Source: Anderseniella sp. Alg231-50 (GTDB lineage: Bacteria; Pseudomonadota; Alphaproteobacteria; Rhizobiales; Aestuariivirgaceae). Taken from it: a stretch of 64,000 nt of DNA. The stretch spans positions 124,001 through 188,000 of the forward strand of contig NZ_LT703004.1 of assembly GCF_900149695.1 (NCBI RefSeq), read 5' to 3'. The position numbers were made by a program, and so were the translations under genes. The notes below the pieces were generated by a model. That model did not search any database. It was not told the DNA's origin and worked only from the letters and a program-made list of their open reading frames with translations. Position 1 is the first letter of the stretch, and the number at the start of each line of letters is the position of its first letter. This document shows, piece by piece, positions 44,558-58,893 of the stretch.

Positions 44558-45438
44558 CACCCGGCGCGGCAACGACAGCAGTGCGGGCCGGACTTGTATC
44601 TCTGACCATGCTGATGCAGTCAGTCACGCCAATACAGGCGCACGCCCCGGAAATCGACACGGTCGCCGTTGCGGCCGGACCGTTTATTCAGGGCTCGAAC
44701 AGGGCGGAGCGCGAGGCCGCCTACCAGCTCGACGAAGCAGCTTATGGACATTCCGTTACCCGCAAAAACAAGTGGTACGAGTCAGAGCCGGCCAGAAGGT
44801 CTGTCGATCTTCCGGCGTTTCACATCATGCGCACGCCGGTTACCAACGCGCTGTATGCCCGTTTTGTAAAAGCCACGGGACACCGGGTACCGGATGTGGA
44901 CAAGAAAACCTGGAAAGGCTACCGGCTCATCCATCCCTACAAGCGCACCAGGCAGTTTGCCTGGAAGGCAGGCAAGATACCAGGCGGGCGCGAGCAACAT
45001 CCAGTGGTGATGGTGTCACGCGCTGATGCAGATGCATTTGCCAAATGGCTCTCGGAACGAACCGGCAAGCAGTGGTCGCTGCCAACCGAACAGCAATGGG
45101 AAAAGGCAGCACGCGGGCCGGACGGCAACCGGTTTCCGTGGGGCGATACCTTCAATCCCGGTGTGCTGAACAGCCATGACAAGGGGCCTTTCACCACCAT
45201 GCCGGTCGGTAGTTTCGCCGATGGAGCGAGCCCATACGGCATGCTTGATTCTGCCGGCCAGGTGTTTGAATGGACGTCAACCTCGGCGTCGGCACAACGC
45301 AGCATCGTCAAGGGTGGGTCGTGGGATGACAGCGGTTGCGGCGTGTGCAGACCGGCAGCCCGGCATTCGCGACCCGACAGCATCAAGCACATTCTTGTCG
45401 GCTTCCGACTGGTTCACATGAGCCTCACGGCAAATTGA
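44554..45438 (+). CDS. Exported formylglycine-generating-enzyme (SUMF1)-like protein
   Basis: 294 aa, overlapping the preceding gene by 4 bp. A signal-like N-terminus (AVRAGLVSLTMLMQSVTPIQAHA) precedes the FGE-sulfatase domain: VAAGPFIQGSNRAEREA, PVTNALYARFVKATGH, HPVVMVSRADADAFAKWLSERTGKQWSLPTEQQWEKAARGP and the C-terminal KGGSWDDSGCGVCRPAARHSRPDS...VGFRLV. True FGEs oxidise the Cys of a C-x-P-x-R motif to formylglycine using a copper site of two cysteines. Here C262 and C265 (GCGVC) are the only nearby cysteines and the spacing differs, so it may be a divergent or repurposed member. It is followed by secreted proteins built of C-N-P-C, whose C-x-P core resembles the FGE target. Confidence 0.85.
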   Translation: MTPGAATTAVRAGLVSLTMLMQSVTPIQAHAPEIDTVAVAAGPFIQGSNRAEREAAYQLDEAAYGHSVTRKNKWYESEPARRSVDLPAFHIMRTPVTNALYARFVKATGHRVPDVDKKTWKGYRLIHPYKRTRQFAWKAGKIPGGREQHPVVMVSRADADAFAKWLSERTGKQWSLPTEQQWEKAARGPDGNRFPWGDTFNPGVLNSHDKGPFTTMPVGSFADGASPYGMLDSAGQVFEWTSTSASAQRSIVKGGSWDDSGCGVCRPAARHSRPDSIKHILVGFRLVHMSLTAN

Positions 45439-45548
45439 AAATACATGTGCCGAGTTTGACCGCAATGGTCACAATCCGCCGCTAAGGTTGCATTCGGGTC
45501 CAATACACAAACGCCATGTCGGCAAAACCCAAAGTGGAGAATACATTC

Positions 45549-45821
45549 ATGAAAATGCACAAAACCAAACTTCTGTCAGGCGCTGCAGCTCTTCCTGTTG
45601 TCCTGGGCCTTGCTGCCGGTGCTGTTGTCTTGTCACCGGTTGTCAGCGACGCGCCTGCATACGCATCCTGCAACCCATGCCAGGCTGCCAAGAAGGCCGC
45701 TTGTGGTGCCTGCAACCCATGTGCTGCTGCCAAGAAGGCTGCCTGTGGTGCCTGCAACCCATGTGCTGCAGCGAAGGCCGCATGCAATCCTTGCAATCCC
45801 TGCTCGGCAGCAAAGCAGTAA
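45549..45821 (+). CDS. Small secreted CNPC-repeat protein
   Basis: 90 aa from ATG 45549 (GGAG site; an upstream ATG at 45516 has a poorer fit). The signal peptide is about 1-36 (KTKLLSGAAALPVVLGLAAGAVVLSP...ASCNPC). The mature part is five C-N-P units with Ala/Lys spacers (CQAAKKAACGA, CAAAKAA) and 12 cysteines in about 50 residues. Its signal sequence resembles that of the large CNPC protein downstream ([17 protein letters not shown]), showing common origin. No enzyme domain is present, so it is a candidate substrate or metal-binding protein of the neighbouring FGE-like enzyme. It has its own terminator. Confidence 0.85.
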   Translation: MKMHKTKLLSGAAALPVVLGLAAGAVVLSPVVSDAPAYASCNPCQAAKKAACGACNPCAAAKKAACGACNPCAAAKAACNPCNPCSAAKQ

Positions 45822-45885
45822 TATCTGCTGATACTGTAATCCCAGTTCAGGCCAATGAGCTCTGCTGAGCTCTGGTCACTGGTTG

Positions 45886-45920
45886 AAACCGCCGGTCATT
45901 TGCGTGGCCGGCGGTTTTTA
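45886..45920 (+). terminator. Terminator of the small CNPC gene
   Basis: AAACCGCCGG / CCGGCGGTTT is a perfect 10-bp stem followed by TT, 65 bp after the stop. Confidence 0.85.
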
Positions 45921-45980
45921 TGTGTTCACGGCAAGTTGAGCCTTTTGCCCTTGATCGTGACTAGGGTCTACCAGCCCTGC

Positions 45981-46000
45981 ACATTACAGTGCCGTAATGT
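45981..46000. promoter_or_regulatory. ACATTAC-N6-GTAATGT inverted repeat
   Basis: Perfect 7-bp arms, 38 bp upstream of the large CNPC gene. It is a possible operator; no matching repeat was seen before the small CNPC gene. Confidence 0.45.
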
Positions 46001-46037
46001 TCATTATGTCGCACCGGCATATTCAAGGAGGAAACCA

Positions 46038-47408
46038 ATGAAGTCATTCAAATCCAACCTGCTGAGGAGCGCAGCCGCGCTTCCGGTTGCGCTCGGCCTT
46101 GCTGCCGGTGTGGTTGCAATCGGAACAGTCAGTGAGCCTCGCATGGCTGCTGCAACCTGCAACCCTTGTGCTGCTACCAAAGCTGCAGCGTGCAATCCAT
46201 GCGCAGCGGCAAAGGCATGTAACCCGTGCAACCCATGTGCGGCGGCAAAAGCCTGCAACCCTTGCAACCCATGCTCGGCCGCAAAAGCCTGCAATCCGTG
46301 CAACCCATGCTCGGCAGCAAAAGCCTGCAATCCGTGCAACCCATGCTCGGCAGCCAAAGCCTGCAATCCGTGCAACCCATGCTCGGCAGCAAAAGCGTGC
46401 AACCCCTGCAACCCGTGCAAGGCATCAGCCTGCAATCCATGCAATCCGTGTAAAGCGGCCTGCGGGGCCTGTAACCCGTGCAACCCATGTAACCCATGCT
46501 CGGCATCGGCTGGCGGCGCGCCAACCGGCTGTTTCGTACCGCGCCTGCAGACAGCCGCGTTATGCAACCCTTGTGCGGCTGCGAAAGCCTGCAATCCGTG
46601 CAACCCATGCTCGGCGGCAAAAGCCTGCAACCCATGCAATCCTTGCTCGGCAGCCAAGGCCTGTAACCCATGCAATCCATGCTCAGCGGCAAAAGCCTGC
46701 AACCCATGCAATCCGTGTTCTGCTGCAAAGGCCTGCAACCCTTGCAACCCATGTGCGGCGGCCAAGGCCTGCAATCCGTGCGCGGCGGCAAAGGCCTGCA
46801 ATCCATGCAATCCGTGCGCAGCGGCAAAAGCCTGCAACCCGTGCAATCCCTGCAAGGCGGCCTGTAATCCCTGTAACCCGTGCAACCCGTGTGCAGCAGC
46901 GGAAGGTCCTGAACTGACAAGCGAAGAAGCTGTTGCGCTCTACGATTGCCTGAAGCCTGTGATGGCCAAGTCATACACAGGTGGAAAGCACTGGGCAGCT
47001 ACCAGGTGGAAAGGCTTTACCCAGGTCACTACGCAGCCTTACACCAGCGCCACCCACGGTGGCCGTCAGGTACAGAACCTGGTCAACAAGATTGGCCTCA
47101 AAGCCTACAAGAAGTTTGATGACATCAAGGCGGTCCCGATCGGATCGACAATGGCGAAACCAAGCTTCACGGTCGGCAAAGACGGCCAGGCAAAACTTGG
47201 GCCCCTTTTCATCATGGAAAAGATGACCCGAGGCTTCAACGCAGATACGTCCAACTGGCGCTATGCGGCTATCCTGCCAGGTGGTCAGACCATGGGCGTC
47301 ACCAAGGCAACCAACTCTGCCGGCGTGACGTTCTGCCATGAGTGCCATGTGTCCGGTGAAGACAACGACTTCCTGTTGCTGGCGCCAGAAGAATACCGCG
47401 TCAAGTAA
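46038..47408 (+). CDS. Secreted CNPC-repeat protein fused to a cytochrome P460-type haem domain
   Basis: 456 aa from ATG 46038 (AAGGAGG site). The signal peptide is about 1-40. Residues about 41-288 consist of CNPC repeats with Ala/Lys/Ser spacers: about 38 CNP units in about 20 blocks of 9-12 residues (typical [12 protein letters not shown]), giving about 60 cysteines. Two similar halves (41-158 and 176-288) are separated by a linker with [12 protein letters not shown]. Residues about 289-456 form a cytochrome P460-type domain with a CXXCH haem motif (C433-H-E-C436-H437). It is exported to the periplasm or beyond. The cysteine load suggests metal storage or covalent modification. The FGE-like protein is a candidate partner. 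Confidence 0.88.
46158..46511 (+). repeat. Tandem 36-bp CNPC coding repeat, first array
   Basis: Ten blocks (mostly 27 or 36 bp) encode CNPC/CNPCNPC units. Several copies are near-identical at DNA level, so recombination-driven length change is likely. All copies keep the reading frame. Confidence 0.95.
46563..46900 (+). repeat. Tandem 36-bp CNPC coding repeat, second array
   Basis: A second array of ten blocks with the same order of variants as the first (CNPCAAAK start, four SAAKA units, triple CNP end). It suggests duplication of a whole module. It ends at the P460 domain. Confidence 0.9.
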
Positions 47409-47600: not shown

Positions 47601-47954
47601 ATGGTTGTTGTGAAGCGATTTCCAGTAGAGGGTAAGGGTCGATGCAGCGCGGTCGAGTCAGGCGGACTGGTCTATGCCGTTGCGACCGATCCGCATTGCG
47701 CGGATGGACTTACCGGGCAAACCCGCAACACACTTGATGAGCTGGACAAAGTGCTCGTCAAGGCAGGCAGCGGCAAAACCGCACTGATACAGGCAACTGT
47801 ATATCTCAGCGACATTTCAGCTAAACCGGCAATGGATGCTGTTTGGAGCGAGTGGATCGGCCCAGAGGAAAACTGGCCGCAGCGCGCCTGTGTCGGGGTG
47901 GACCTCGATGCCGGGTACCTGATCGAGGTAGTGGTGGTCGCGACAGTGCTCTGA
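47601..47954 (+). CDS. RidA-family (YjgF/YER057c) protein
   Basis: 117 aa from ATG 47601; GTG 47610 or TTG 47583 are alternative starts and the ribosome site (AAGGG) best fits the GTG. The core is GGLVYAVATDPHCADGLTGQTRNTLDELDKVLVKAGSGKTALIQATVYLSD and ends RACVGVDLDAGYLIEVVVVATVL. RidA proteins hydrolyse reactive enamine/imine intermediates. The characteristic RVEI-type arginine is replaced by CVGVD here, so it belongs to a less typical subgroup. It stands alone; its neighbour on the opposite strand is a membrane protein. Confidence 0.8.
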   Translation: MVVVKRFPVEGKGRCSAVESGGLVYAVATDPHCADGLTGQTRNTLDELDKVLVKAGSGKTALIQATVYLSDISAKPAMDAVWSEWIGPEENWPQRACVGVDLDAGYLIEVVVVATVL

Positions 47955-48090
47955 AGGCTCTTTGTCGCAGAAGATGTTGTTTGCCATCTGCGTCCCGACC
48001 GGCAGGCTGGAGTCCAACTCACCGGCTTCTGCGGCCTGTCCGGCGTCCGCCTTGGCCATTCATTCCCGGCCATCTCATTGCTTCGCAATC

Positions 48091-48477
48091 TCAACTCCCA
48101 AGGTAGAGAAGCCCGGAGCAGAGAAACCAGACCATCCAGTGCGGCAACCGCAACAGGCCCGCAGCCCGCCGGTTGAGGAATTTCAGTTGAATGACCCAAA
48201 CCAGGCCCCAAAGAAAGAAGAGCAGGCTGAGTGAAAGCACGATAGGGCGTTCCAACTGCCCCAGATCAGAAAAGGCGACAGCAAAGAGTGCGACCGCAAC
48301 GACCAGAAGGTCAACTGTCAGCATTTGAAATGCGCACATGGCCTGGACCCAATTTGCAGTCAGGTCCTCGTCTTGCGAAGCGGGAGCGATGGTGGCCGTT
48401 TCCTTTGTGCCAGCAAAGACATGTGCAACAAGCGCGAGCAAAGTGATGCAGGCGACGGTCAAAATCAGGACATTCAT
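48091..48477 (-). CDS. Small four-helix membrane protein, unrecognised
   Basis: 128 aa with four hydrophobic segments (residues about 3-21, 46-68, 77-99 and 112-126) separated by short charged loops (LGQLERP, KFLNRRAAG). The N-terminal helix (MNVLILTVACITLLALVAHVFAG) is followed by a Thr/Ala-rich loop ETATIAPASQDED. No family was recognised. It is co-directional with the downstream-facing TetR gene but separated by 76 bp. Its role is unknown. Confidence 0.7.
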   Translation of the reverse strand: MNVLILTVACITLLALVAHVFAGTKETATIAPASQDEDLTANWVQAMCAFQMLTVDLLVVAVALFAVAFSDLGQLERPIVLSLSLLFFLWGLVWVIQLKFLNRRAAGLLRLPHWMVWFLCSGLLYLGS

Positions 48478-48553
48478 AAGCGGTTCTCCTCAACGTAACG
48501 ATTGAAAATGCGTGTTCCGGACATCAGAAGACTTCGGAAAGACTGCGCATTCA

Positions 48554-49177
48554 TCATCCGTCGCGGATGCATCCGGTCAAAAAGCCATCAACAGCGGTTT
48601 TTACAATTTGTTCGATCTCATCGTGGGAAGGAATTTGCGCAGTCAGCACCGCCAGCAGGTGTGCATTGCCACGAAGCATTCCCATAAACTGCGCCGCAGC
48701 CATATCCGGGTCAGCAATGTGTAAATTTTTTTGGTTTGACTGCTCGCGAAGATAATCTGCGAGATGTTTACTGGCCCGGCCCGGTCCGTTCTGTATGAAA
48801 CTGTCCGCCAGGTCAGGAAAATGTATCGCTTCCGCCACCATTGCGCGGTACAGGGCAATTCCATCGGCCGAGGTCATGACCTGGAGATAGCGAATTCCCA
48901 TGTCGATGAGCGTTTCCCTGATCTCTTTTGTTTCAATTTGAGGCGTCAGGGCAGACAGCACGCGGTCTGAAACCTGTGCGATGATAGCCTTGAACAACGC
49001 CTCCTTGTTCTCAAAATGACCATACAGGGTTCGCTTGGAACCACCGACAGCAGACAAGACGCGATCCATGGTTGTGCGTCCATATCCCTCTTTGAAAAAT
49101 AGCGTTTTTGCCGCCGCCAGGATCGCGGCGCGCTTTTCCGATTGACGCCGCTCAAGGCCACTTTGTGTGTTTTTCAT
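48554..49177 (-). CDS. TetR/AcrR-family transcriptional regulator
   Basis: 207 aa. The HTH (residues about 10-55, RQSEKRAAILAAAKTLFFKEGYGRTTMDRVLSAVGGSKRTLYGHFENKEALFKAII) is standard for TetR repressors; the C-terminal ligand domain follows with a TetR_C_7-like ending. It diverges from the OsmC gene, and two palindromic operators overlap the intervening promoter. It probably represses itself and osmC, and is released by a reactive or lipophilic compound. Confidence 0.93.
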   Translation of the reverse strand: MKNTQSGLERRQSEKRAAILAAAKTLFFKEGYGRTTMDRVLSAVGGSKRTLYGHFENKEALFKAIIAQVSDRVLSALTPQIETKEIRETLIDMGIRYLQVMTSADGIALYRAMVAEAIHFPDLADSFIQNGPGRASKHLADYLREQSNQKNLHIADPDMAAAQFMGMLRGNAHLLAVLTAQIPSHDEIEQIVKTAVDGFLTGCIRDG

Positions 49178-49200
49178 ATCCCGTTTCCATATCGATCCTA

Positions 49201-49253
49201 TTGACAGGTACGATATCGTATCCTATCTGTCAATTTGGGTACGATATCGTACC
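49201..49253 (+). promoter_or_regulatory. osmC promoter with two TetR operators
   Basis: TTGACA (49201-49206), a 17-bp spacer and TATCTG (49224-49229) form a near-consensus promoter for osmC. A GGTACGAT-ATCGTATC near-palindrome (49207-49222) fills the spacer and a perfect palindrome GGTACGATATCGTACC (49238-49253) lies downstream, 31 bp centre to centre. Confidence 0.85.
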
Positions 49254-49274
49254 GTTATCCAAAGGAGAACACTC

Positions 49275-49874
49275 ATGACGTCAGTAACCGGTACCACGAC
49301 TTTTGACGGAACGCTTGTGAAGCGCATCCCCACAATGCCCGCCCCTGTCTCATTTGAAATCGAGCCCGCGAAAAAAACCAGGGAAGGTTTGGACCTTGAA
49401 CTGCACACGATCGCCGAACTTATGCAGGGTCCCGGCTTGCTGAAGCGTTGCTACGTCAAACCGAACATCCCGTCATTTGGCGCTTTCGAAATGCACAGTG
49501 ACGAAGGTACCGTGATTGGCGGGTCGGACCTCGCGCCAGCGCCGCTCTCCTATCTGGCAGCCGGCATCGCCTTTTGTCTGCTCACTCACCTCAAGGGCTG
49601 TGCCGACAGCCAGGGACTCAACATTTCATCGATCCGTGTTGAACAGAAAATGAAATTTCAGTCGCGCATTCCGGGCATGACCGCTGACATGGGTGGCCAG
49701 ATGGAAGGGCATTCGAATGGCCTCGAGACATTTGTGCTGATTGAAACGCAAGAGGACGATGAAGTGATAACTCGAATGTCAGACATTGCCGAGCGCGCCT
49801 GCATGGCTGCCCAGACTGTTGTAAATGCGGTTCCCGCATCGCTGACTGTCACAATCAATGGGCGGCAAATCTAG
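49275..49874 (+). CDS. OsmC-family protein
   Basis: 199 aa from ATG 49275 (AAGGAGA site). OsmC fold: an N-terminal beta region, the conserved GGSDLAPAPLSYLAAGIAFCLLTHLKGCADSQGLNISSIRVEQKMKF (catalytic-type Cys in the helix) and a C-terminal VVNAVPASLTVTINGR. Such proteins reduce organic or fatty-acid hydroperoxides with paired cysteines or are redox sensors. It is under the TetR-type repressor encoded divergently, so it is likely induced by a toxic peroxide or aldehyde. Confidence 0.9.
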   Translation: MTSVTGTTTFDGTLVKRIPTMPAPVSFEIEPAKKTREGLDLELHTIAELMQGPGLLKRCYVKPNIPSFGAFEMHSDEGTVIGGSDLAPAPLSYLAAGIAFCLLTHLKGCADSQGLNISSIRVEQKMKFQSRIPGMTADMGGQMEGHSNGLETFVLIETQEDDEVITRMSDIAERACMAAQTVVNAVPASLTVTINGRQI

Positions 49875-50116
49875 TCAAAAGCCCGCGCTGTCTCGCAGCA
49901 GCGCGGACCCTTCCCCATTGCACTCTCTTGCCAAGTTAACTCGCCTGCAATTGTATCTGGCATTGGCTGGTCGCAACATTTAAACTATCCAGCCTGCCCG
50001 ACATAACTCATGTCATAGCTAAACTTGATGATCATCTGACCAGGCGGTCAGGCAAGGGCTTCACCTCGCCTTCTCCTGCCCCCTTTCCACATGTTTCCCG
50101 GAAAATGAGGCCTCAA

Positions 50117-50506
50117 ATGCCATTCAACAAACTTCATGTCCCAAAGACGCTATCAAGCGATATCTGCCGTTCGATCAACGATCAGTTGCACGCCAGCCTG
50201 GTCGAAATGTGCGGAGTGAATCCCGATGACTATTTCTGTTTGATCTGCCGATACGAGCCGGAAGATATGATCTTTCATCCAACATTTCTCGGGGAAAGAG
50301 TTCCCCGCGCCACCATCGTGATCGAAATTGCACTCCTGGGTGGCCGGTCAGACAACCAGAAAGAAAAGCTCTACAAGGATGTTCGGCACCGGCTTCGCGA
50401 AATCGGCTTCGATCCCGCGAACTCGATCATGTTTCTCGTCGAAAATGGCCCTGCCGACTGGTCATTCAGCGAAGCTGGTTCGGTGAAAACCGTGCTTGGT
50501 CTGTGA
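50117..50506 (+). CDS. Tautomerase-family protein
   Basis: 129 aa from ATG 50117, whose product begins MPFNKLHVPKTLSS and so exposes the N-terminal proline after Met removal, as in tautomerases; an ATG 12 bp upstream would not. The ribosome site is GAGG. The body is DYFCLICRYEPEDMIFHPTFLGERVPRATIVIEIALLGGRSDNQKEKLYKDVRHRLREIGFD, typical of tautomerase_2 proteins of about 130 aa. The substrate is unknown. The 240 bp upstream contain only a modest 8-bp hairpin at 49883-49906. Confidence 0.8.
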   Translation: MPFNKLHVPKTLSSDICRSINDQLHASLVEMCGVNPDDYFCLICRYEPEDMIFHPTFLGERVPRATIVIEIALLGGRSDNQKEKLYKDVRHRLREIGFDPANSIMFLVENGPADWSFSEAGSVKTVLGL

Positions 50507-50538
50507 CCTCCAGCAACTATGATGTGTCCGGAACCGGA

Positions 50539-50640
50539 TCACACGTTGAGCAGCAGGAACTCCCGTTCCCATGACGAGATAACCTTGCGATACCGAACCT
50601 GCTCTTCTTCCTTAGCCGCCGCAAATTCCATCGCTGACAC
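50539..50640 (-). pseudogene. C-terminal fragment of a glutamine-synthetase-type gene
   Basis: Reading the minus strand gives ...AAKEEEQVRYRKVISSWERE then FLLLNV and a stop, the exact C-terminus style of the GS-type gene at 57544 (which ends VKEEEQVQYRKVISSWE then the same tail). 41 bases are identical (50543-50583 with 57548-57588), then similarity fades. No upstream GS sequence remains, so it is a truncated remnant. It marks one edge of the oxidase island. Confidence 0.8.
50543..50583. repeat. Direct repeat flanking the oxidase island, left copy
   Basis: 41 bp identical to 57548-57588 and in the same orientation, 7005 bp apart. The right copy is part of the intact GS-type gene. Confidence 0.85.
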
Positions 50641-50713
50641 GGTTCGCTTCACCACGGAGTTTTGACAGTTCCCGGAACTTCATGAGGCCCGATCTGTCAC
50701 GTTCTTTTCTGCA

Positions 50714-52222
50714 TCAGATCACTTCAACCGCCTGCATCATACCCCGATCCTCGTGAAACAGAATATGGCAGTGGATGACAAACTTGCCTTTGAAATCGAT
50801 GAACCGACTTCGACAGGTTATGGAACCAGGTTCACCATCACTGCCCACAGGTAAGGCGATAGTGTCCTGCCAGCGCCTTAGTGGACTGTCCAACGGAAGT
50901 TCTTTGCCATCGATATGGGTCACAAAAAACGGATTGACGTGAATATGGAAGGGATGCGTACCACTGGTTGTGTTCTGAATCCTCCATTCCTCCGACGTCC
51001 CCAGCGCCATTTTCTGTCGCACCTGACCGCTATAGAGCTCTCCGTCGATAGCGAGGCCTTCACTTATTCGCTCGAAGGTCACGACTCTTTTGGGTAGATC
51101 ATCAGCCTGAATTGGTTCCAGGCCGGAACCAGGCAAAAGGTCATCGGTTGACCATTCGTTGTCAACCGGGTCTCCTTCGATTTCTATTCTGATTTCGGCC
51201 GGAGAAGCAGCCGCAAGGGATGCTCCATCCGTATGCAGGAATTTCGCATCGGCAGGCGCGGCAGATAATCTGACTGACTGGCTCGGGGCATCGCGTGGAA
51301 TGTAGATCATGAGATCTGTACGATTTCCTGGCGCCAGTGCCGCGGGATTGTTCCAGGGTTCTTCATCATTCGACGGGTCGATTTTTATTCTCCGCGGCAA
51401 TGTCAGGCCATCGAATGCAATCTGCCAGAGTTCCACCGTGGGCACATCAACCGCAAGGCTTACGAATGAATTGGCGAAAAGCGATCCGTTAATGATCCGC
51501 CAGCGCTGAACTGAACCTGGCCTCAGTTTTACGGTCGGATTGACATCACCACCACCATCTGCATTGACACGGATCATTTCAGCATTTCCAACGATCATAA
51601 ATATCTGCTCTTCAGCTTTTTCAACGTATCCAGGCATCAATCCGGGCTTGTCTCTGATGATCAATGGACCAGCCAAACCGCTGCTCACCTGGGTTGCCGT
51701 CGAACCATGTTTGTGTGCGTGATACCAATAGGTTCCGGGAGGATGATCTTCAGGCAATTCGAAACGATATTGTGTTTCATGCCGGCGGAAATTCTCATCC
51801 CAGCAAGGCACGTCTTGATCCTTCGGAATTATTTTCAGGAAGATGTTGTCGGCATCGTACTTGCCGCTTGAATCCTTGTAGGGAGAAACGTGCAATCCAT
51901 GTGTATGCAGATTTGTCGTATGATCGCCGTGGAATGTATTGTGGTTCAGGACGCAATCGTCATCTGCCCTGGGCAGGTTGTTGATAAGCCGGACATCTAT
52001 CGTGTCGCCGGGGTTTGCAAGAATAGCCGGTCCAGGCGACTTGCCATTGTAAGTCATCCGGCCGCCATCTTTGGCAACTTCGAGATCCAGGCTAACCACA
52101 TTTGATGCATTTGCGGGTCGCGGCAATCCAACTCCGAACGGAGATCCGGCCAGTGCAAACCCAACGCCGATCCCTGCTGTTCTTTTTACGAAAGTACGTC
52201 GGTTGACTTTGTTGATTGTCAT
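50714..52222 (-). CDS. Multicopper oxidase (laccase-like), Tat-exported
   Basis: 502 aa from ATG 52222 (AGGA site inside the preceding MRNE). The twin-arginine motif NRRTFVKR is at residues about 8-15, followed by a hydrophobic stretch. Copper motifs: HTHGLHV, WYHAHKHGST, HPFHIHVNPF and HCHILFHEDRGMM (Cys-His bridge with a type 1 Met). It is probably periplasmic and oxidises phenols or metal ions with O2. It starts the divergent pair of the island; the stop lies about 75 bp from the GS remnant. Bilirubin oxidase/CotA-like length is about 500 aa, as here. Confidence 0.92.
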   Translation of the reverse strand: MTINKVNRRTFVKRTAGIGVGFALAGSPFGVGLPRPANASNVVSLDLEVAKDGGRMTYNGKSPGPAILANPGDTIDVRLINNLPRADDDCVLNHNTFHGDHTTNLHTHGLHVSPYKDSSGKYDADNIFLKIIPKDQDVPCWDENFRRHETQYRFELPEDHPPGTYWYHAHKHGSTATQVSSGLAGPLIIRDKPGLMPGYVEKAEEQIFMIVGNAEMIRVNADGGGDVNPTVKLRPGSVQRWRIINGSLFANSFVSLAVDVPTVELWQIAFDGLTLPRRIKIDPSNDEEPWNNPAALAPGNRTDLMIYIPRDAPSQSVRLSAAPADAKFLHTDGASLAAASPAEIRIEIEGDPVDNEWSTDDLLPGSGLEPIQADDLPKRVVTFERISEGLAIDGELYSGQVRQKMALGTSEEWRIQNTTSGTHPFHIHVNPFFVTHIDGKELPLDSPLRRWQDTIALPVGSDGEPGSITCRSRFIDFKGKFVIHCHILFHEDRGMMQAVEVI

Positions 52223-52442
52223 GATTTCATTCCTCATGGTCACTACATTACACTCGAGATCAGAACCTTAAAAAAGCTTCCGTACTTCCCGATTTCAAGC
52301 GGGAAATATTTAAATGTCGCACCGTGAGCAGTAACGCATAGCCAATCAATCAATAAAACCGAAAATCTAAAATATATTATTCAATTTTTATTTGAATGAA
52401 ACTGATTAACAATCAAATATACCAGGTTTTAATTTTTTGGAA

Positions 52443-52458
52443 TGTGAAGCGCTTCACA
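52443..52458. promoter_or_regulatory. 16-bp palindrome in the island intergenic region
   Basis: TGTGAAGCGCTTCACA is perfect on both strands. It fits the CRP spacing TGTGA-N6-TCACA, and its core AAGCGCTT also suits LacI-type sites. It lies 79 bp upstream of the 52537 gene in an AT-rich 314-bp stretch. Confidence 0.55.
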
Positions 52459-52536
52459 GACCCCATTCTTTTTTCATTTATATTTCCCGATTGAAAACTC
52501 ACGCCGGATATCGTGAGAAGAACGGAGGGATGTGAA

Positions 52537-52935
52537 ATGACCAGCCCGATTGTAGGAACATGGAGTTATCGCAGCTTTCTGAACAATGCTGATTTGGACT
52601 TGGAGTTCAACAATCTCCGTTTCGGAGCGGGTACGCTTGAGATTACGGAACCGGAGAGAGGCATCGTTGCCGGCAGCCTTGGCGGAACCGGTTGGTCTCT
52701 CGGGCTTCAAGGCTGGCTCAGTTCCGGCAACCCCGGCACGATCCGTTTTCAGGGTTCAGGAGATATCGGTGGGGAGCATTGGGTTTATGATTATCTCGGA
52801 TTTCTTTCTCCGCACTGGCCAAACGGGGTGGACCAGGTTCCCTCCATCGTCGGCACAATTGTGCGAACCGCACCACACAGCAATGGCAATGCTCCGGCCG
52901 GTTTCGTTGCTTCCTGGTATGCCGTGAAACAGTAA
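52537..52935 (+). CDS. Small beta-rich protein of unknown function
   Basis: 132 aa from ATG 52537 (GGAGG site). No signal peptide. It starts MTSPIVGTWSYRSFLNNADLDLEFNNLRFG and is rich in Gly, Ser, Trp and Leu in short beta-like runs (GWSLGLQGWLSSGNPGTIRFQGSGDIGG). The 'IVGTWSYRS' opening recalls lipocalin- or avidin-type barrels but the match is too weak for a call. It is the first gene of the P460-tyrosinase string, 14 bp before P460, so it could be a ligand-binding or assembly protein. Confidence 0.7.
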   Translation: MTSPIVGTWSYRSFLNNADLDLEFNNLRFGAGTLEITEPERGIVAGSLGGTGWSLGLQGWLSSGNPGTIRFQGSGDIGGEHWVYDYLGFLSPHWPNGVDQVPSIVGTIVRTAPHSNGNAPAGFVASWYAVKQ

Positions 52936-52949
52936 GAGAGAGCAAACGA

Positions 52950-53594
52950 ATGAGCGAGCTCGAAAAACCCAGTTTAATAACCCGCACAACGAGGTGGGGT
53001 GGATTTGGCGTTTTGATCTTTGCCTTGTCCCTTTTCATTCCGAATTTCGCCACTGGTCAGCAAGCGCCCAACTTCGTGCCCCAATATGACAAAAGCGGGC
53101 GATTGAAGGTGCCTACCGGTTATGAAACCTGGGTCTTTGTCGGTTCGAATATAGGGCTGGGATACGCCGCGGAACTGCCCGCGATGACCGCGAAAGAAGC
53201 AAAACGGGTTGAGACAGGTTCCTTCCACAATATCTACATCAATCCTGCCGCACATCAACACTTCATCGAGACCGGTGAATTTCCTGATCCGACTGTACTT
53301 GTGATGGAGCATTACGAAGCCAAGGGAAAACAGCCCGAAGGCATCCTCGATAAAGGCGTTTTCAATGGCGCGCGCTCGGGATTTGAGGTGGCGGTCAAGA
53401 ATCCCGCAAGGCCAGATGGCTCAAAGACACCATGGGCTTATTACATTTTCACAGACAGGAAAGATCCCAGCCAGGTCAAGCCGGTAGCCAAGGCCTTTCC
53501 CGATGCTGCCTGCTTCAGTTGCCACGAGAAACACGCGAGCACCGACAATGTCTGGGTGCAGTTCTACCCGGTGCTTAGGAAGCATCTGAAGTAA
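52950..53594 (+). CDS. Cytochrome P460-family haem protein
   Basis: 214 aa. The N-terminal hydrophobic segment (residues about 17-36, FGVLIFALSLFIPNFATGQ) is a signal or anchor. The body has ETWVFVGSNIGLGYAAELPAMTAKEAKRVETGSFHNIYINPAAHQHFIETGEFPDPTVLVMEHYEA and a haem motif C188-F-S-C191-H192, then STDNVWVQFYPVL. P460 proteins carry a Lys-modified c-type haem and oxidise hydroxylamine or related compounds, or are redox sensors. A second P460-type domain is in the CNPC protein (46038). It is 24 bp before the tyrosinase. Confidence 0.85.
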   Translation: MSELEKPSLITRTTRWGGFGVLIFALSLFIPNFATGQQAPNFVPQYDKSGRLKVPTGYETWVFVGSNIGLGYAAELPAMTAKEAKRVETGSFHNIYINPAAHQHFIETGEFPDPTVLVMEHYEAKGKQPEGILDKGVFNGARSGFEVAVKNPARPDGSKTPWAYYIFTDRKDPSQVKPVAKAFPDAACFSCHEKHASTDNVWVQFYPVLRKHLK

Positions 53595-53618
53595 ACCAGA
53601 AACCAACAGGAGGACAAA

Positions 53619-55112
53619 ATGATCACTAGACGCACAATGCTAAGGACAACTGCCACCGCTGGCGCTTTGGCTTTTGCAGCAAACATGCCCGGCCTCCAAG
53701 CTTTGGCTCAAGGTACGGTGCCACTGCGGCGCAGCGTGGGTGAACTGGCCCTCAACGATCCTATTATCGAGACTTATCGCGAGTTCGTTGCGAAAATGAA
53801 GGAAAAGCCGTCCAACCAACCGGCCAGCTGGATCGGCTTTTCTGACGTCCACGGGACAGCCTCAGGCGGTTTCAATCTGTGTCCACATGGGAACTGGTAC
53901 TTCCTGCCGTGGCATCGCGCCTATCTTCAGATGTATGAAATCATGGCCCGAGACACGACCGGCAATCAGGATTTCGCGATGCCCTATTGGGATTGGACGG
54001 CTGACCGGCAAATCCCTAAGGCTTTCTCGGATCCGACACTCACAAACGGTGATCCGAACCCGCTTTTTGACTCGTCCAGGACCATGCCTGCCAATGCGTC
54101 GCTACCCGACCATGTGGTCGGTCAATCGCAAGTGATGGATGGCATATTTTCCGAAACAAACTTCGAGACTTTCGCAACAACCAGGCCCGCAGGCCAAAAT
54201 AACCTGGATCCATCCTGGATTACCGGAGGAGGCGGAAGTCAAGGAGCTATGGAAGGCAATCCGCATAATCAGGTTCACTGCCGAGTTGGCGGGGATATGT
54301 GTTCTGCGATCTCGCCGCAGGATCCGATCTTCATGATGCATCACTGCAACATCGACCGTATCTGGGCGGCGTGGAATGCCCTGGGCAGAACGAACACGAC
54401 CGATCCTCTATGGCTCGATATGCCTTTTACCGACAACTTCATCGCGCCGGATGGAAGCCTGTACACAAAAGTCGTCAAAGACCTCCAACAAACGGAGCCC
54501 TTGGGATATACATACACGCCACCACCACCTGATCCCATACCGGTCGATCCTGATGTCAACAACAAGTACATTGCACTCTATGGAGGAGCATCCGCCGCGC
54601 TTGCAGCTGGTGCGGGGCCTCTTCGCGTTACCGCCGACAACAGCGCAATGGCGGAGGCGCTCAAACCGCTATCGGTGGCACTGGGCGTTGATCCCAAAGC
54701 AATCGCAAAAGCCGTTGCAGTTCAGACGCCCTCTCTGGCGGCATCCTCCAACGAGCCGTCACCCCAGGTACTCGCCCTGATAAAGGATATCAAGACCAAC
54801 AATACCATGGTCACCGAGTATCGGGTTTTCGTGAACTGCGATTACCTTTCGCAAGCGGTTCCAACGACCGACCCGCATTATGTCACCACATTCGGATTCT
54901 TCGGTGATCACAAAGCAGGATCCGGCAGTAGTCACAAAAAAGACCCGTCCGTTGTCGTAAATCTCACTGACACTCTCAAGGCGCTCAGCCGGCAAAAACG
55001 CTTGGTGAACGATAAGGTGACCGTGCAGATACTGCCTGTTCCGTACCCGGGTGTTCCGCTTGAGAAAGCGGGAACGGCGGTTCCTGCCATGGTTGAGATC
55101 GCCGTCATATAG
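53619..55112 (+). CDS. Tyrosinase (Tat-exported, type-3 copper)
   Basis: 497 aa. Twin-arginine start MITRRTMLRTTATAGALAF. CuA site: H78, H90 and H99 (C88-P-H90 may form the Cys-His thioether; FLPWHR follows). CuB site: H216-N-Q-V-H220 and the HH pair at 241-242 before NIDRIWAAWN. The C-terminal half (about 330-497) is the polyphenol-oxidase-type domain ending LPVPYPGVPLEKAGTAVPAMVEIAVI. It oxidises phenols or tyrosine residues. Export with neighbouring MCO and P460 suggests a periplasmic oxidation set; the nearby subtilase could process it. Confidence 0.93.
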   Translation: MITRRTMLRTTATAGALAFAANMPGLQALAQGTVPLRRSVGELALNDPIIETYREFVAKMKEKPSNQPASWIGFSDVHGTASGGFNLCPHGNWYFLPWHRAYLQMYEIMARDTTGNQDFAMPYWDWTADRQIPKAFSDPTLTNGDPNPLFDSSRTMPANASLPDHVVGQSQVMDGIFSETNFETFATTRPAGQNNLDPSWITGGGGSQGAMEGNPHNQVHCRVGGDMCSAISPQDPIFMMHHCNIDRIWAAWNALGRTNTTDPLWLDMPFTDNFIAPDGSLYTKVVKDLQQTEPLGYTYTPPPPDPIPVDPDVNNKYIALYGGASAALAAGAGPLRVTADNSAMAEALKPLSVALGVDPKAIAKAVAVQTPSLAASSNEPSPQVLALIKDIKTNNTMVTEYRVFVNCDYLSQAVPTTDPHYVTTFGFFGDHKAGSGSSHKKDPSVVVNLTDTLKALSRQKRLVNDKVTVQILPVPYPGVPLEKAGTAVPAMVEIAVI

Positions 55113-55177
55113 TACCAACATAGGTCCGGGGTAAGTCAGATGATCTGACTTACCCCGATTTGCAAAAAGTGGGAGAC

Positions 55178-55663
55178 ATGAAGGACAGACGATTTTTCCA
55201 GGTGTTCCTGATGTGTTGTGCGACGGGGGTAACCACTTTTGCGTGCAGCGCTGAGGAACCGGAGATAGGTGAAGATGAACAAAAATTTGTAACAGCGGCC
55301 AAACCCGCTTTGATCTGCCAGTCCATCAACAGGGCAGCGTTTGACACCCTGATGGCAGGTAATGGGAGATTGACGTTAGTTGTCAAATCCTATGAAGCCG
55401 GGAACAGCCAAAGTCATGAATTCAAGGTGTCTTTGGTGAATAGTGAAACGGATGAAAAGATAATTGCTACGAGATTTGGATTGTTTCCGGGCACATCATT
55501 CAAATCTGACACGCCGGAAGATTATCAGAGGTTCCAGGTCCCAGTGGCCAGGCACAAGGATGCGTTGACCTATTCGAAACAATTATGTCTCGAGGTTTCG
55601 TTCGGCACCCCCAACGCAAAAACAAAAAATTCAGCCGCCGAGGTGGATATAGAGATCAATTAG
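55178..55663 (+). CDS. Probable lipoprotein, unrecognised
   Basis: 161 aa from ATG 55178 (GGGAG site). The N-terminus MKDRRFFQVFLMCCATGVTTFACSAEEPEIGEDEQKF has a hydrophobic stretch ending in TFAC-S, a plausible lipobox with Cys as lipid anchor. The mature part is rich in Glu, Lys, Ser and Asn and predicted to be beta-rich (RLTLVVKSYEAGNSQSHEFKVSLVNSETDEKIIATRFGLFP). Base composition is AT-richer than neighbours outside the island. No family was recognised. It sits between the tyrosinase and subtilase, 65 and 44 bp away. Confidence 0.72.
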   Translation: MKDRRFFQVFLMCCATGVTTFACSAEEPEIGEDEQKFVTAAKPALICQSINRAAFDTLMAGNGRLTLVVKSYEAGNSQSHEFKVSLVNSETDEKIIATRFGLFPGTSFKSDTPEDYQRFQVPVARHKDALTYSKQLCLEVSFGTPNAKTKNSAAEVDIEIN

Positions 55664-55707
55664 TGATGGCGAGCATTTCGCGCTAAGTTCATGAAAGGAA
55701 GCACAAT

Positions 55708-56955
55708 ATGTCAGTCCAATTAGACGCTACACTTGCGGCAAAAGGTCATGCGAAAGTTGTTGTTGCCCTCACGTCGGAGGCTGCGGCGGCTGCCGATACC
55801 AGCTCAATTCGCAACGAGTTGGAAGATTGTTTCATGGAGCCCGATTCAAGCCAGCAGGCAAGTCTGGCGACAGCCAATATGGCTTTGTCGGCAAGTCTGA
55901 GTTCCCAGAACGTAAAACCTGCACCGAAAATGCGCATCTATCCGCATCTGGGACTGGCGCTCGGCGTTGTCGATACTGATGGTGCGCGCAGGATAGCTGA
56001 AAGCAGGGCGGCAGCGGACGTCGTTGAGGCACCCGTTATCAGTCTAATTCGTCCGGTGCTGGTCCGGCCGGGGCGCCTTACGACGCGCCCAAGTTGGGGC
56101 ATCAGGCGTATCAAGGCGGATAAATTGTGGGAAAACGGGTTCACGGGCGATGGCATCGTAGTGGGCCATCTGGATACCGGCATCGATGGAAAACACGACG
56201 CGCTTGTTGATGCTATTGATGAATTTGCCGAGTTTGACTTTAACGGCAATCGTGTCGCAGGCGCGACCGCCTGGGACAGCGGCAATCACGGAACTCATAC
56301 GGCAGGAACGATCGTCGGCAGACCGTCCAACGACGCCTTTGGTGTCGCGCCCAAGGCCAAGGTCGCCAGTGGAATGGTGATCGAAGGCGGACAGGTGGTT
56401 GACCGGATACTTGCCGGAATGGAATGGGTCGCCAGTAAAGGTGTACGTATTCTAAGCATGTCGTTGGGCTTGCGTGGTTTTACACCAGCCTTTCAGGTCA
56501 TTGTCGATGCGTTGCGCAATGCCGATATCCTGCCGGTCATTGCAGTGGGCAATGAATTTGCCAATTCCAGCCGGTCGCCGGGAAACTATGCCAATGTTCT
56601 GTCTGTTGGCGCGATGGACCAAGACGAACTTGTCGCCGGATTTTCGAGTAGCGACAGTTTCAACAGACCCAATGACCCCCTGGTTCCCGATATCGTTGCG
56701 CCTGGTGTAGATATACTTTCCTGTATTCCTGGCAACCGGTACAGAAAGATGAATGGTACATCGATGGCAACACCCCATATTGCCGGGATGGCAGCGCTTT
56801 TGCTGCAGGCCAAGCCAAATGCCAGTGTCGGTGAGCTTGAGATGTCCATTCAGAAGTCCTGCATCCGACCGGCATCCATGCCTGAAGCCAGAGCAAACCG
56901 CGGTGTTCCTGATGCTATGGAGGCGTTCTTCCACCTGACAGGCCGTCGACTCTAA
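55708..56955 (+). CDS. Subtilisin-like serine peptidase (S8)
   Basis: 415 aa. A propeptide-like N-terminus (about 1-115, with VVVALTSEAAAAADTSS and VVDTDGARRIAESRAAADVVEA) precedes the S8 domain. Catalytic residues: D156 (HLDTGIDG), H194 (GNHGTHTAG) and S352 (GTSMATPHIAG). No signal peptide is evident, which is odd for a secreted subtilase in a set of exported proteins. It could process the tyrosinase or act intracellularly. The gene at 57075 encodes an I9-like domain, a likely inhibitor or chaperone. Confidence 0.93.
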   Translation: MSVQLDATLAAKGHAKVVVALTSEAAAAADTSSIRNELEDCFMEPDSSQQASLATANMALSASLSSQNVKPAPKMRIYPHLGLALGVVDTDGARRIAESRAAADVVEAPVISLIRPVLVRPGRLTTRPSWGIRRIKADKLWENGFTGDGIVVGHLDTGIDGKHDALVDAIDEFAEFDFNGNRVAGATAWDSGNHGTHTAGTIVGRPSNDAFGVAPKAKVASGMVIEGGQVVDRILAGMEWVASKGVRILSMSLGLRGFTPAFQVIVDALRNADILPVIAVGNEFANSSRSPGNYANVLSVGAMDQDELVAGFSSSDSFNRPNDPLVPDIVAPGVDILSCIPGNRYRKMNGTSMATPHIAGMAALLLQAKPNASVGELEMSIQKSCIRPASMPEARANRGVPDAMEAFFHLTGRRL

Positions 56956-57074
56956 GGGCATTTCTGCGATAGGATCAAAAGCACAAGCAATCTCGTCGAC
57001 CGGTTTGGGTTCTAAGCAGCTTGAACCGGTGCATGAGAACCATTACATCCGGATCTGGATAGATGAGGAGAACA

Positions 57075-57431
57075 ATGCCCGACGATCGAGATACTACTCC
57101 GCAATGGCAAAAGGAGACTGTGGTAGAGGAGATGCGAAGGCAGGCTCTGCCCGACCGCCCCCCCACCGCCCAGGTTTTTCTGGAAGCATCAGTGGAAGTT
57201 GACAGCAATTCGATGGAAGAGTTCGCCCGCAAAATGGTTGAAGACGCGGCTGCAAAATCACATACTCAGGCCGCAGAATCGCACATCGGAAAACTACACC
57301 CTTTAGCCAAGTCTTTTTCGGTAACGGCAGACCCGGAAGTTTTTGCTGAAATTGCAAAATCACCATCAGTCAAATCGATACTGCCATCGGAAATACACGA
57401 CATTTATCCAAAACCGTTTGAATCGGACTGA
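57075..57431 (+). CDS. Stand-alone I9-like inhibitor/propeptide protein
   Basis: 118 aa from ATG 57075 (GAGGAGAA site). The C-terminal half (residues about 60-118) reads SFSVTADPEVFAEIAKSPSVKSILPSEIHDIYPKP, the pattern of a subtilase I9 propeptide (DPE...LAxSPxVxxVxPD). The N-terminal half is hydrophilic. A free I9 domain next to an S8 gene is probably a folding chaperone or inhibitor for it. This is inferred from pattern and position; no signal peptide is seen, as with the subtilase. It is the last gene of the island. Confidence 0.72.
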   Translation: MPDDRDTTPQWQKETVVEEMRRQALPDRPPTAQVFLEASVEVDSNSMEEFARKMVEDAAAKSHTQAAESHIGKLHPLAKSFSVTADPEVFAEIAKSPSVKSILPSEIHDIYPKPFESD

Positions 57432-57543
57432 TAAGTTATTGCGATTATCGAACTGAACAGGATTCCCGTTCGCCCTTGCTTGTGATCCATGTCTGCAAGC
57501 AGCGTAGACCATGCCAAGCTCACTTCGGCCCACATCGAGCAGA

Positions 57544-58893
57544 TCAGACGTTGAGCAGCAGGAACTCCCGTTCCCATGACGAGATAACTTTACGATACTG
57601 CACCTGCTCTTCTTCCTTCACCGCCATGAAGGCTTCGACGAAACGCTGGCCCAGAACCGTCTTCAGCGGCTTGGAATAGTTCAGCTTGTTCATCGCATCA
57701 TCAAGGTTGATCGGCAGGGAATGCGCGTAGCGGTAGGCGGAGCCCTCGATCGGGGCCGACGGCTCCAGTTTCTCCATCATGCCGAGATAACCGCACGCCA
57801 GGGAGGCGGCAATGCACAGATAGGGGTTCGCATCGGCACCTGGCACGCGGTTTTCGATACGGGTGTTCTGCGGATCGGAATTAGGCATGCGCAAGGGCGC
57901 GGTGCGGTTGTCGATGCCCCAGTGGGTGTTGGTGGGGGCATCGGAGTTCGGCACCAGCCGGCGGTAGGAATTGACATTGGGTGCACAAAACCCCATTGCC
58001 GCCGGCAGGTAACGCTGCAGTCCGGCAACGTGGGCCATGAACAACTTGGACGGCTTCTTGCCACGTCCCTTGAAGAGGTTTTTTCCGGTTTCGACGTCCA
58101 GCAGCGACTGGTGCAGGTGCATTGACGAACCCGGTTCATCCTGATGCGGCTTGGCCATGAAGGTGGCATAGACATCATGCTTCAGCGCCGCCTGGCGGAC
58201 AGTACGCTTGAACAGGAACACCTGGTCGGCCAGCTCCAGCGGATCGCCATGGTTGAAATTAATCTCCAGTTGCGCCGGTCCGCTTTCATGACTGATCGTG
58301 TCGATATCAATCTCCTGCGCTTCGCAGAAGTCATAGATATCCTCAACAATCGGATCAAATTCGTTGGCCGCGTCTATGCCATAAGCCTGGCCAACCTTCT
58401 CCGCCCGGCCACTGGTTCCAATGGGCGCCTCGAGCGGATAGTCCGCATCCAGGTTCTTCTTGACCAGATAGAACTCCAGTTCAGGTGCCACGACCGGCTT
58501 CCAGCCCTGCTCGGCATAAAGCTGCAACACCTGCTTCAAAACATATCGCGGCGAGATGTCCACCGGATCACCGTTCAGGTAATGAGCATCGCAAATCACC
58601 TGCGCCGTCGGGTTGACATGCCAGGGCACCAGCTTCAGCGAATTGATATCAGGAACCAGGTAAACATCACCCGATGCATCCGAGACCGGTGAATCCTGCC
58701 ACGAATACTTGCCTGTAACGGTCAGAATAAAGATATCTTCCGGCAACCGCATCGAGGTACTGCCGATACCTTTGAGAAATTTCTTGGCCGGCAGTATCTT
58801 GCCGCGCGGTGTTCCTGCGGGATCAGGAACAAGGCACTCAATCTCATCAATGTTGTGTTTCGCGAACCATTCTTCAAATTTTGCTATCGACAT
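57544..58893 (-). CDS. Glutamine-synthetase-type ligase (PuuA-like)
   Basis: 449 aa, full length. GS domains: N-terminal beta-grasp region (ECLVPDPAGTPRGKILPA), then catalytic blocks LEFYLVKKNL, QLEINFNHGDPLELADQVFLFKRTVRQAALKHDVYATFMAKPHQDEPGSSMHLHQSL and ENRVPGADANPYLCIAASLACGYLG. The absence of a Tyr-adenylylation tail and the context (agmatinase, PuuB-like oxidase) point to gamma-glutamylation of putrescine or another amine, not ammonia. Its 3' end is duplicated as a fragment at 50539. It is divergent from another GS-type gene. Confidence 0.88.
   Translation of the reverse strand: MSIAKFEEWFAKHNIDEIECLVPDPAGTPRGKILPAKKFLKGIGSTSMRLPEDIFILTVTGKYSWQDSPVSDASGDVYLVPDINSLKLVPWHVNPTAQVICDAHYLNGDPVDISPRYVLKQVLQLYAEQGWKPVVAPELEFYLVKKNLDADYPLEAPIGTSGRAEKVGQAYGIDAANEFDPIVEDIYDFCEAQEIDIDTISHESGPAQLEINFNHGDPLELADQVFLFKRTVRQAALKHDVYATFMAKPHQDEPGSSMHLHQSLLDVETGKNLFKGRGKKPSKLFMAHVAGLQRYLPAAMGFCAPNVNSYRRLVPNSDAPTNTHWGIDNRTAPLRMPNSDPQNTRIENRVPGADANPYLCIAASLACGYLGMMEKLEPSAPIEGSAYRYAHSLPINLDDAMNKLNYSKPLKTVLGQRFVEAFMAVKEEEQVQYRKVISSWEREFLLLNV
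57548..57588. repeat. Direct repeat flanking the oxidase island, right copy
   Basis: 41 bp identical to 50543-50583, here part of the intact GS-type gene at 57544. Same orientation as the left copy. Confidence 0.85.

Follow-up and report, generated by a model that had tools for sequence, protein, structure and literature searches.

Gene content and layout

The stretch of DNA analysed here (the window, 64,000 nucleotides of contig NZ_LT703004.1 from Anderseniella sp. Alg231-50) contains a block of about 7 kb with seven genes, among them those for a tyrosinase, a multicopper oxidase (MCO), a haem protein of the P460 fold and an S8 peptidase. The initial annotation had named six of them, and all six are present with verified coordinates and belong to the families proposed; its list was incomplete in that the seventh gene, orf140 (52537-52935), had been overlooked. 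The block and the direct repeat that encloses it are laid out as follows.

50537-50620 (+): left copy of an 84-bp repeat, the displaced 3' end of a glutamine-synthetase-like gene; 92% identity to the right copy
50714-52243 (-): MCO, exported by twin-arginine translocation (Tat), laccase/CueO-like, divergent from the other genes; Cu-oxidase_2, 2.5e-18
52513-52935 (+), better ATG 52537: orf140, 132-140 amino acids, no Pfam family
52950-53594 (+): P460-fold haem protein, exported, c-type; PF16694, 1.1e-21, CFSCH
53619-55112 (+): tyrosinase, Tat-exported, latent type with C-terminal lid; PF00264, 1.2e-38, and PPO1_KFDV (PF12143), 6.4e-9
55160-55663 (+), better ATG 55178: lipo, exported or lipoprotein-like small beta-sandwich protein; no Pfam match
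55708-56955 (+): S8 subtilase, no signal peptide; PF00082, 1.2e-48
57063-57431 (+): I9-like small protein, no signal peptide; PF05922, E 0.0066
57542-57625 (+): right copy of the 84-bp repeat, the native 3' end of the glutamine-synthetase-like gene at 57544-58893 (-)

The six forward genes follow one another at gaps of 14, 24, 47, 44 and 107 bp, and the divergent MCO gene sits 269 bp upstream of them. From this spacing alone we infer an operon running from orf140 to the I9-like gene; a scan of the block found no excess of sigma-70 promoters or terminators over shuffled expectation. The grouping is more than chance: the spacing is tight, homologous sets occur in other genera and the repeat brackets the genes. 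The set had been described as possibly periplasmic. This applies to the MCO and the tyrosinase, with their twin-arginine signals, and to the exported haem protein and lipo, but not to the subtilase, the I9-like protein and Orf140, in which inspection revealed no signal peptide.

A repeat-bounded unit

The two copies of the 84-bp direct repeat share the same orientation, lie at a spacing of 7,005 bp and enclose exactly the seven genes; genes for TetR, OsmC and a tautomerase, on the left side of the block, fall outside the bracket. The repeat sequence occurs twice in this genome and once apiece in the five others of the genus. Synteny with the same-genus genomes reaches up to about 47950 and resumes at 57536, and between these points only one stretch of 80-88 bp matches, namely the 3' end of the glutamine-synthetase-like gene, a gene found in all eight relatives searched. 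At the four same-genus loci that were read (L132-L135) nothing of the block is seen, L134 being a short contig that is informative for the first part only. The left repeat copy retains the flank CCGGATCA, which precedes the gene end in L132 and L134, and the flank of the right copy differs.

A gene 3' end displaced beyond a block usually marks gene-end integration or recombination with a circular donor. Because the same-genus loci read hold one repeat copy and no block, the block looks like a single 7,005-bp insertion at the 3' end of the glutamine-synthetase-like gene. Gene content in the 3' flank of that gene (57542-58893; 47950-57536) varies among the same-genus genomes examined, and this flank may be an insertion hot spot.

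Tyrosinase, multicopper oxidase and haem protein

The tyrosinase has a twin-arginine N-terminus and intact copper motifs (CPHGNW and PWHR for CuA, NPHNQVH and MHHCNIDRIW for CuB). It aligns over its full length (1-497) with the Ralstonia solanacearum tyrosinase RsTYR (7xio, 1e-125) and is about 42% identical to the tyrosinase MelA of Rhizobium etli CFN42, both of which share with it the catalytic core and the C-terminal lid. It is thus assigned by homology to the latent RsTYR/MelA type with a lid of its own, latency being predicted. Lid domains of this type are removed by proteolysis in other latent tyrosinases, and for the Tat-exported Verrucomicrobium tyrosinase such removal has been proposed as the way to activation (PMC10526336). 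A separate small protein is encoded beside the tyrosinase in the Streptomyces MelC1/MelC2 system also, but MelC2 lacks a C-terminal domain and is exported on the signal of its caddie, whereas the tyrosinase here has its own lid and Tat signal; moreover MelA, its homologue, needs no chaperone in Escherichia coli.

The genome carries a second, different tyrosinase (G000:C1:1630183-1630896; L080, 7533-9056), with no signal peptide by inspection. Its gene is followed by one of the DUF2182 (PpoB2-like copper chaperone) family and by one for a large protein with a caspase-like region.

The MCO combines a twin-arginine N-terminus with four HxH motifs (HTH at 113, HAH at 175, HIH at 433 and HCH at 491, with HEDRGMM), and its best solved match is the Thermus laccase 2xu9 (2.4e-26). 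In the haem protein, which the initial annotation had called a P460 protein, the PF16694 fold and the CXXCH attachment site (CFSCH at 188) are both present, but the defining heme-lysine cross-link is not: Met119 occupies the position of the cross-link Lys70 of Nitrosomonas europaea P460 (NeP460). Since Met119 replaces the cross-linking Lys, the protein falls by its sequence outside the cytochromes P460 by definition and near the c'-beta-Met type. The likeness to cytochrome c'-beta-Met of N. europaea (NeCP-beta) lies in a P460 fold with Met for the cross-link Lys; NeCP-beta has no distal Glu, whereas the protein here keeps Glu146, aligned with Glu96 of NeP460, so the absence of a distal carboxylate does not extend to it. 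The characterised c'-beta-Met member has guaiacol peroxidase activity (PMC11928373). A counterpart at 51% identity, also with Met at the cross-link position, is the P460 of a Mesorhizobium AR10 cluster described below; a P460 search of 372 genomes of the class at E <= 1e-25 matched in this genome only.

Two adjoining genes nearby, at 44554-47408 of the window, include one for another P460-fold haem protein, in which the fold comes after 22 CNPC repeats (66 Cys in 517 amino acids, CHECH haem site) and Met again takes the position of the cross-link Lys. Directly in front of it lies the other, a gene of the FGE/sulfatase-modifying-factor family (PF03781, 1e-42). Three same-genus genomes (L132, L133 and L135) retain the CNPC gene, the number of repeats varying between them, and the FGE-type gene was read as an open reading frame in L132.

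Two small proteins beside the tyrosinase

Described initially as a putative lipoprotein, lipo is a small protein of exported or lipoprotein-like type; its lipobox is weak here (TFAC), while many relatives carry LAAC or VAGC. Our tyrosinase scan of the genome collection yielded 75 loci, and the next gene after the tyrosinase belongs to the lipo family in all 34 of the 34 loci of the full-length group that allow the test (L005-L038 and L064, leaving out L019, which ends at the tyrosinase). R. etli MelA on plasmid p42d is also followed directly by a lipo-family gene, and relatives of R. etli have the family too, although around MelA, unlike here, no MCO, orf140, haem protein or subtilase is annotated within 4 kb. 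A single-sequence tblastn search of plasmids with lipo gave no match, the family being too divergent for such a search.

A lipo model built from a 27-sequence alignment reached a mean predicted local distance difference test (pLDDT) of 84. In Foldseek, C-terminal domains of polyphenol oxidases (PPOs) occupied ranks 2-4 at probability 1.0, and the top VIA-align match was the C-terminal domain of Ralstonia TYR (7xio, 352-494; Z 8.0, root-mean-square deviation 3.7, 114 residues), with that of apple PPO1 at Z 7.7. Profile comparison of lipo with the tyrosinase C-terminus gave a weak match (hhalign probability 13-22%, E 1e-3 to 2e-3; column-shuffled controls gave E 0.27-0.89). Lipo is therefore, by model and profile, a probable though unproven stand-alone relative of the PPO C-terminal lid domain. 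Apparent tyrosinase-lipo fusions in Caulobacter, Jiella and Sphingomonas were rejected, as these long open reading frames lie in another frame than the tyrosinase.

Another small family without characterised members, hyp110, occupies the corresponding position behind 13 other tyrosinases, which belong to other subfamilies (L089/L090, L054, L058, L061, L065-L068, L071, L072, L075 and L079). Its profile, like that of lipo, weakly matches the tyrosinase C-terminal domain (E 1e-3).

Orf140 matched none of the Pfam or NCBIfam models, and a profile search of Pfam and the PDB was likewise empty. Homologues were found in 107 plasmid records and four other genomes of the class, and none in viral contigs; they adjoin a tyrosinase, an MCO or LodA in about 12 of 14 lineages. 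The copy in L066 is frame-shifted. What connects Orf140 with a known domain is one bridging protein, L105 (513 amino acids): over its first 150 residues it matches the Orf140 profile (70.8 bits), and the whole protein is collinear with PvdP (3e-90), which is made up of an N-terminal beta-barrel and a tyrosinase domain (PMC9569983). Through L105, Orf140 is probably the detached equivalent of the PvdP N-terminal barrel. In PvdP of Pseudomonas (6EYS) this domain is fused to the tyrosinase; here it would be a separate gene, and the tyrosinase beside it is not PvdP-like.

The subtilase and its partner

The S8 catalytic motifs are intact (D156, H194 and S352). The I9-like protein resembles the I9 family, as the initial annotation had it, but its 17.5 bits against PF05922 stay under the curated cut-off of 21.2, and no solved relative was found. 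From its resemblance and place it is probably an inhibitor or partner of the subtilase. Searching the 372 class genomes for the pair with the I9 profile returned this genome and one weak match only. The closest relatives of the two proteins form the same pair away from tyrosinases, in Azospirillum lipoferum (between nap and nos genes) and in Rhizobium TH2, where the S8 relative is fused behind amidase, GDSL-lipase and murein-endopeptidase domains and has an I9-like neighbour. This TH2 locus, on plasmid pTH2a (L092, 3353-8644), encodes a 1,651-residue GDSL-lipase/N-acetylmuramoyl-alanine amidase/murein endopeptidase/S8 protein and then the I9-like protein, an effector/immunity-like arrangement.

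No S8 or M4 gene was found in the flanks of the 74 other tyrosinase loci of the scan. Other signal-less peptidases do occur in tyrosinase clusters that have orf140: an M4 peptidase with emfourin in Mesorhizobium AR10, and an M4 peptidase in R. phaseoli and R. leguminosarum. An S8 or M4 gene is thus present in 3 of about 10 orf140-plus-tyrosinase lineages and in none of the 74 other loci (hypergeometric probability by hand about 0.001, for loci that are not independent and flanks of unequal length). The M4-emfourin pair at the end of the AR10 cluster corresponds to the protealysin/emfourin operon, in which, as here, a signal-less protease is encoded with its inhibitor, the families being M4 and emfourin there and S8 and I9-like here. 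Protealysin and emfourin are intracellular and have been proposed to form an effector/immunity pair (PMC9505478). A reading of the block as a defence system was rejected, PADLOC having returned a generic subtilase match only.

Recurrence in other genera

Related sets were found in several arrangements: (i) MCO-orf140-tyrosinase in Mesorhizobium AR10, Sinorhizobium meliloti GR4 and Rhizobium CB3171; (ii) M4 peptidase-orf140-tyrosinase-DUF2182 in R. phaseoli and R. leguminosarum; (iii) tyrosinase-orf140 in Burkholderia pyrrocinia; (iv) MCO-tyrosinase-LodA-orf140-FAD protein in R. ruizarguesonis and M. loti; (v) orf140-MCO-tyrosinase-lipo in R. lusitanum; (vi) orf140 fused to a PvdP-type tyrosinase, with LodA adjoining, in M. 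onobrychidis; and (vii) MCO-tyrosinase-lipo in six betaproteobacterial loci, including those of Nitrosomonas and Acidovorax. The prospect that the neighbouring genes might be conserved together in no other genome, which the initial annotation had named as the finding that would undo its grouping, is thus dispelled.

The AR10 cluster also has a P460 gene, and it ends in the M4 peptidase and emfourin where the window has the S8 and I9-like genes. Its plasmid (L117, 5448-19156) carries on one strand a LodA_C-like open reading frame and genes for a radical SAM protein, an FAD monooxygenase, MCO, Orf140, tyrosinase, P460, a YCF48-like propeller, M4 and emfourin, a run that looks like an extended form of the present set. 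The S. meliloti mepA-type region (pRmeGR4b) has the order MCO-orf140-Tat tyrosinase-small protein in common with the window; its tyrosinase is of another subfamily, hyp110 lies downstream, and there is no haem protein or subtilase.

That no described system has this exact set remains true of the full set, but not of its core: the association of an MCO, a tyrosinase and a 138-142-residue protein with no domain, together with lodA, was reported in 2015 by Campillo-Brocal et al. (PMC4417212). Those LodA group-ID operons contain the same small no-domain family, and they carry LodA and LodB, whereas none of the seven genes here matches LodA or an FAD oxidoreductase. What the window has in addition are the P460-fold haem protein, lipo, the S8/I9-like pair, a tyrosinase of the RsTYR/MelA type and the repeat-bounded 7-kb unit. 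The core association is therefore already known; the novelty lies in the two unknown small proteins, both of which point to known tyrosinase control domains, here in the form of separate genes.

A proposed mechanism and its alternatives

We propose, with evenly divided confidence, that the block is a phenol-oxidising set inserted in one piece and centred on a latent tyrosinase, on which lipo and Orf140 act in trans and to which the S8/I9-like pair adds conditional proteolysis. The tyrosinase would fold in the cytoplasm and leave by Tat, closed by its own C-terminal lid. Lipo and Orf140 would hold, shield or present its active site, in the manner of the Streptomyces caddie. Once opened in the periplasm, the enzyme would convert phenols to quinones; the laccase-type MCO could carry out one-electron oxidation of phenols or of the products, and the c'-beta-Met-like haem protein a peroxidase-type step, with a melanin-like polymer or detoxified phenols as the outcome. 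Conditional proteolysis, serving to remove the lid or for disposal, before export or else once the cell has lysed, would be the part of the subtilase and its I9-like partner, and is the weakest step. The phenol-oxidation set suggested by the initial annotation is upheld to this extent, that MCO and tyrosinase recur together elsewhere and the haem protein is of the Met kind, whose characterised member oxidises guaiacol (PMC11928373). The same annotation suggested that the subtilase may mature the tyrosinase. The lid, of a type cut off in other latent tyrosinases, and the signal-less peptidases of two other tyrosinase clusters speak for this; against it, the pair is signal-less, S8 and M4 were not found at the 74 other loci, and the pair recurs without a tyrosinase. 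Proteolytic maturation by S8 is possible but unproven, a fair hypothesis and not the only one. The most specific version, in which a free-standing lid-like protein and a PvdP-type barrel control the tyrosinase in trans, an I9-inhibited subtilase unlocks it and the whole travels as a mobile 7-kb unit, we consider unlikely.

Several observations weigh against the proposal. No integrase or recombinase is found among the seven bracketed genes. The subtilase and the I9-like protein lack signal peptides, whereas the tyrosinase is Tat-exported, and the occurrence of the pair in A. lipoferum and Rhizobium TH2 shows it independent of a tyrosinase there. In no case did inspection reveal a signal peptide in Orf140, not even in AR10, where the tyrosinase beside it looks Sec-exported; that it acts in trans on an exported tyrosinase can therefore not be taken for granted. 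In E. coli, R. etli MelA is active when its lipo neighbour is absent (PMC6821874), and basal activity thus does not depend on lipo.

The strongest competing account, plausible though we rate it somewhat below an even chance, keeps the MCO, Orf140, haem protein, tyrosinase and lipo as the phenol-oxidation set and treats the S8 and I9-like genes as an independent passenger of effector/immunity or housekeeping function. The missing signal peptides, the recurrence without tyrosinase, the lack of any S8 match in the flanks of the 74 other loci and the intracellular habit of the analogous protealysin/emfourin pair (PMC9505478) all speak for a passenger; the S8 gene nevertheless starts only 44 bp after lipo, both genes lie inside the repeat-bounded unit, and two other orf140/tyrosinase clusters have a different signal-less peptidase, with the enrichment and its reservations as given above.

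Another doubt concerns lipo and Orf140, which might be ordinary small beta proteins (e.g. for copper handling or carbohydrate binding) whose likeness to control domains is one of common fold only; we judge this doubtful, if well short of negligible. The lipo model also matches PNGase F (Z 7.9), CBM15 (Z 7.0) and CBM29, and in these model comparisons the lid match at Z 8.0 is at the edge of the scores of unrelated beta-sandwiches. As the next nearest relatives of tyrosinase lids are carbohydrate-binding folds (PMC10526336), such a mixed list is also what a lid would give. The Orf140 profile scored -1.2 bits directly against the PvdP N-terminus, which is not significant, an AlphaFold model of Orf140 built on the window and L066 fragments only was left unused at pLDDT 40, and two homologues (L107 and L109) lie away from oxidases. 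PPO lids nonetheless head the VIA-align list and hold their high Foldseek ranks, the place of lipo directly 3' of the tyrosinase is invariant, and Orf140 occurs fused to a PvdP-type tyrosinase domain.

The remaining accounts give the oxidases other targets. Rather improbable to us is an island for antimicrobial competition, directing quinones, radicals and protease against neighbours as has been suggested for LodA-type clusters: the orf140 family does stand beside LodA amino-acid oxidases, which produce antimicrobial H2O2, in several clusters (PMC4417212), and protease/inhibitor pairs resemble effector/immunity pairs, but no LodA, secretion system or toxin domain was seen in the block, the Tat signals of tyrosinase and MCO target the cell's own periplasm, and PADLOC recognised nothing beyond the subtilase. 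More improbable still is that the set acts not on free phenols but on a peptide or protein, by Tyr oxidation, cross-linking or cofactor formation, and that the protease trims this substrate. The substrate of PvdP in the periplasm is indeed a peptide, the precursor of a siderophore (PMC9569983), and the AR10 cluster encodes radical SAM and FAD monooxygenase proteins alongside a LodA_C-like open reading frame. The block, however, contains no precursor-peptide-like open reading frame, radical SAM or LodB-like protein. Its tyrosinase, moreover, is of the RsTYR/MelA type, whose characterised members oxidise free L-tyrosine.

Implications

Activation of latent tyrosinases in the cell has been called still elusive outside insects (PMC11608171). 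The repeat-bounded unit shows that the genes of the present set, as far as it represents a single insertion, moved together. Of the two uncharacterised families that occur with bacterial tyrosinases, one directly follows the much-used R. etli MelA; both are here tied, with the probability stated for each, to known control domains. The three cases of an exchangeable signal-less protease beside such tyrosinases, two of them with an inhibitor partner, would make a candidate activation route.

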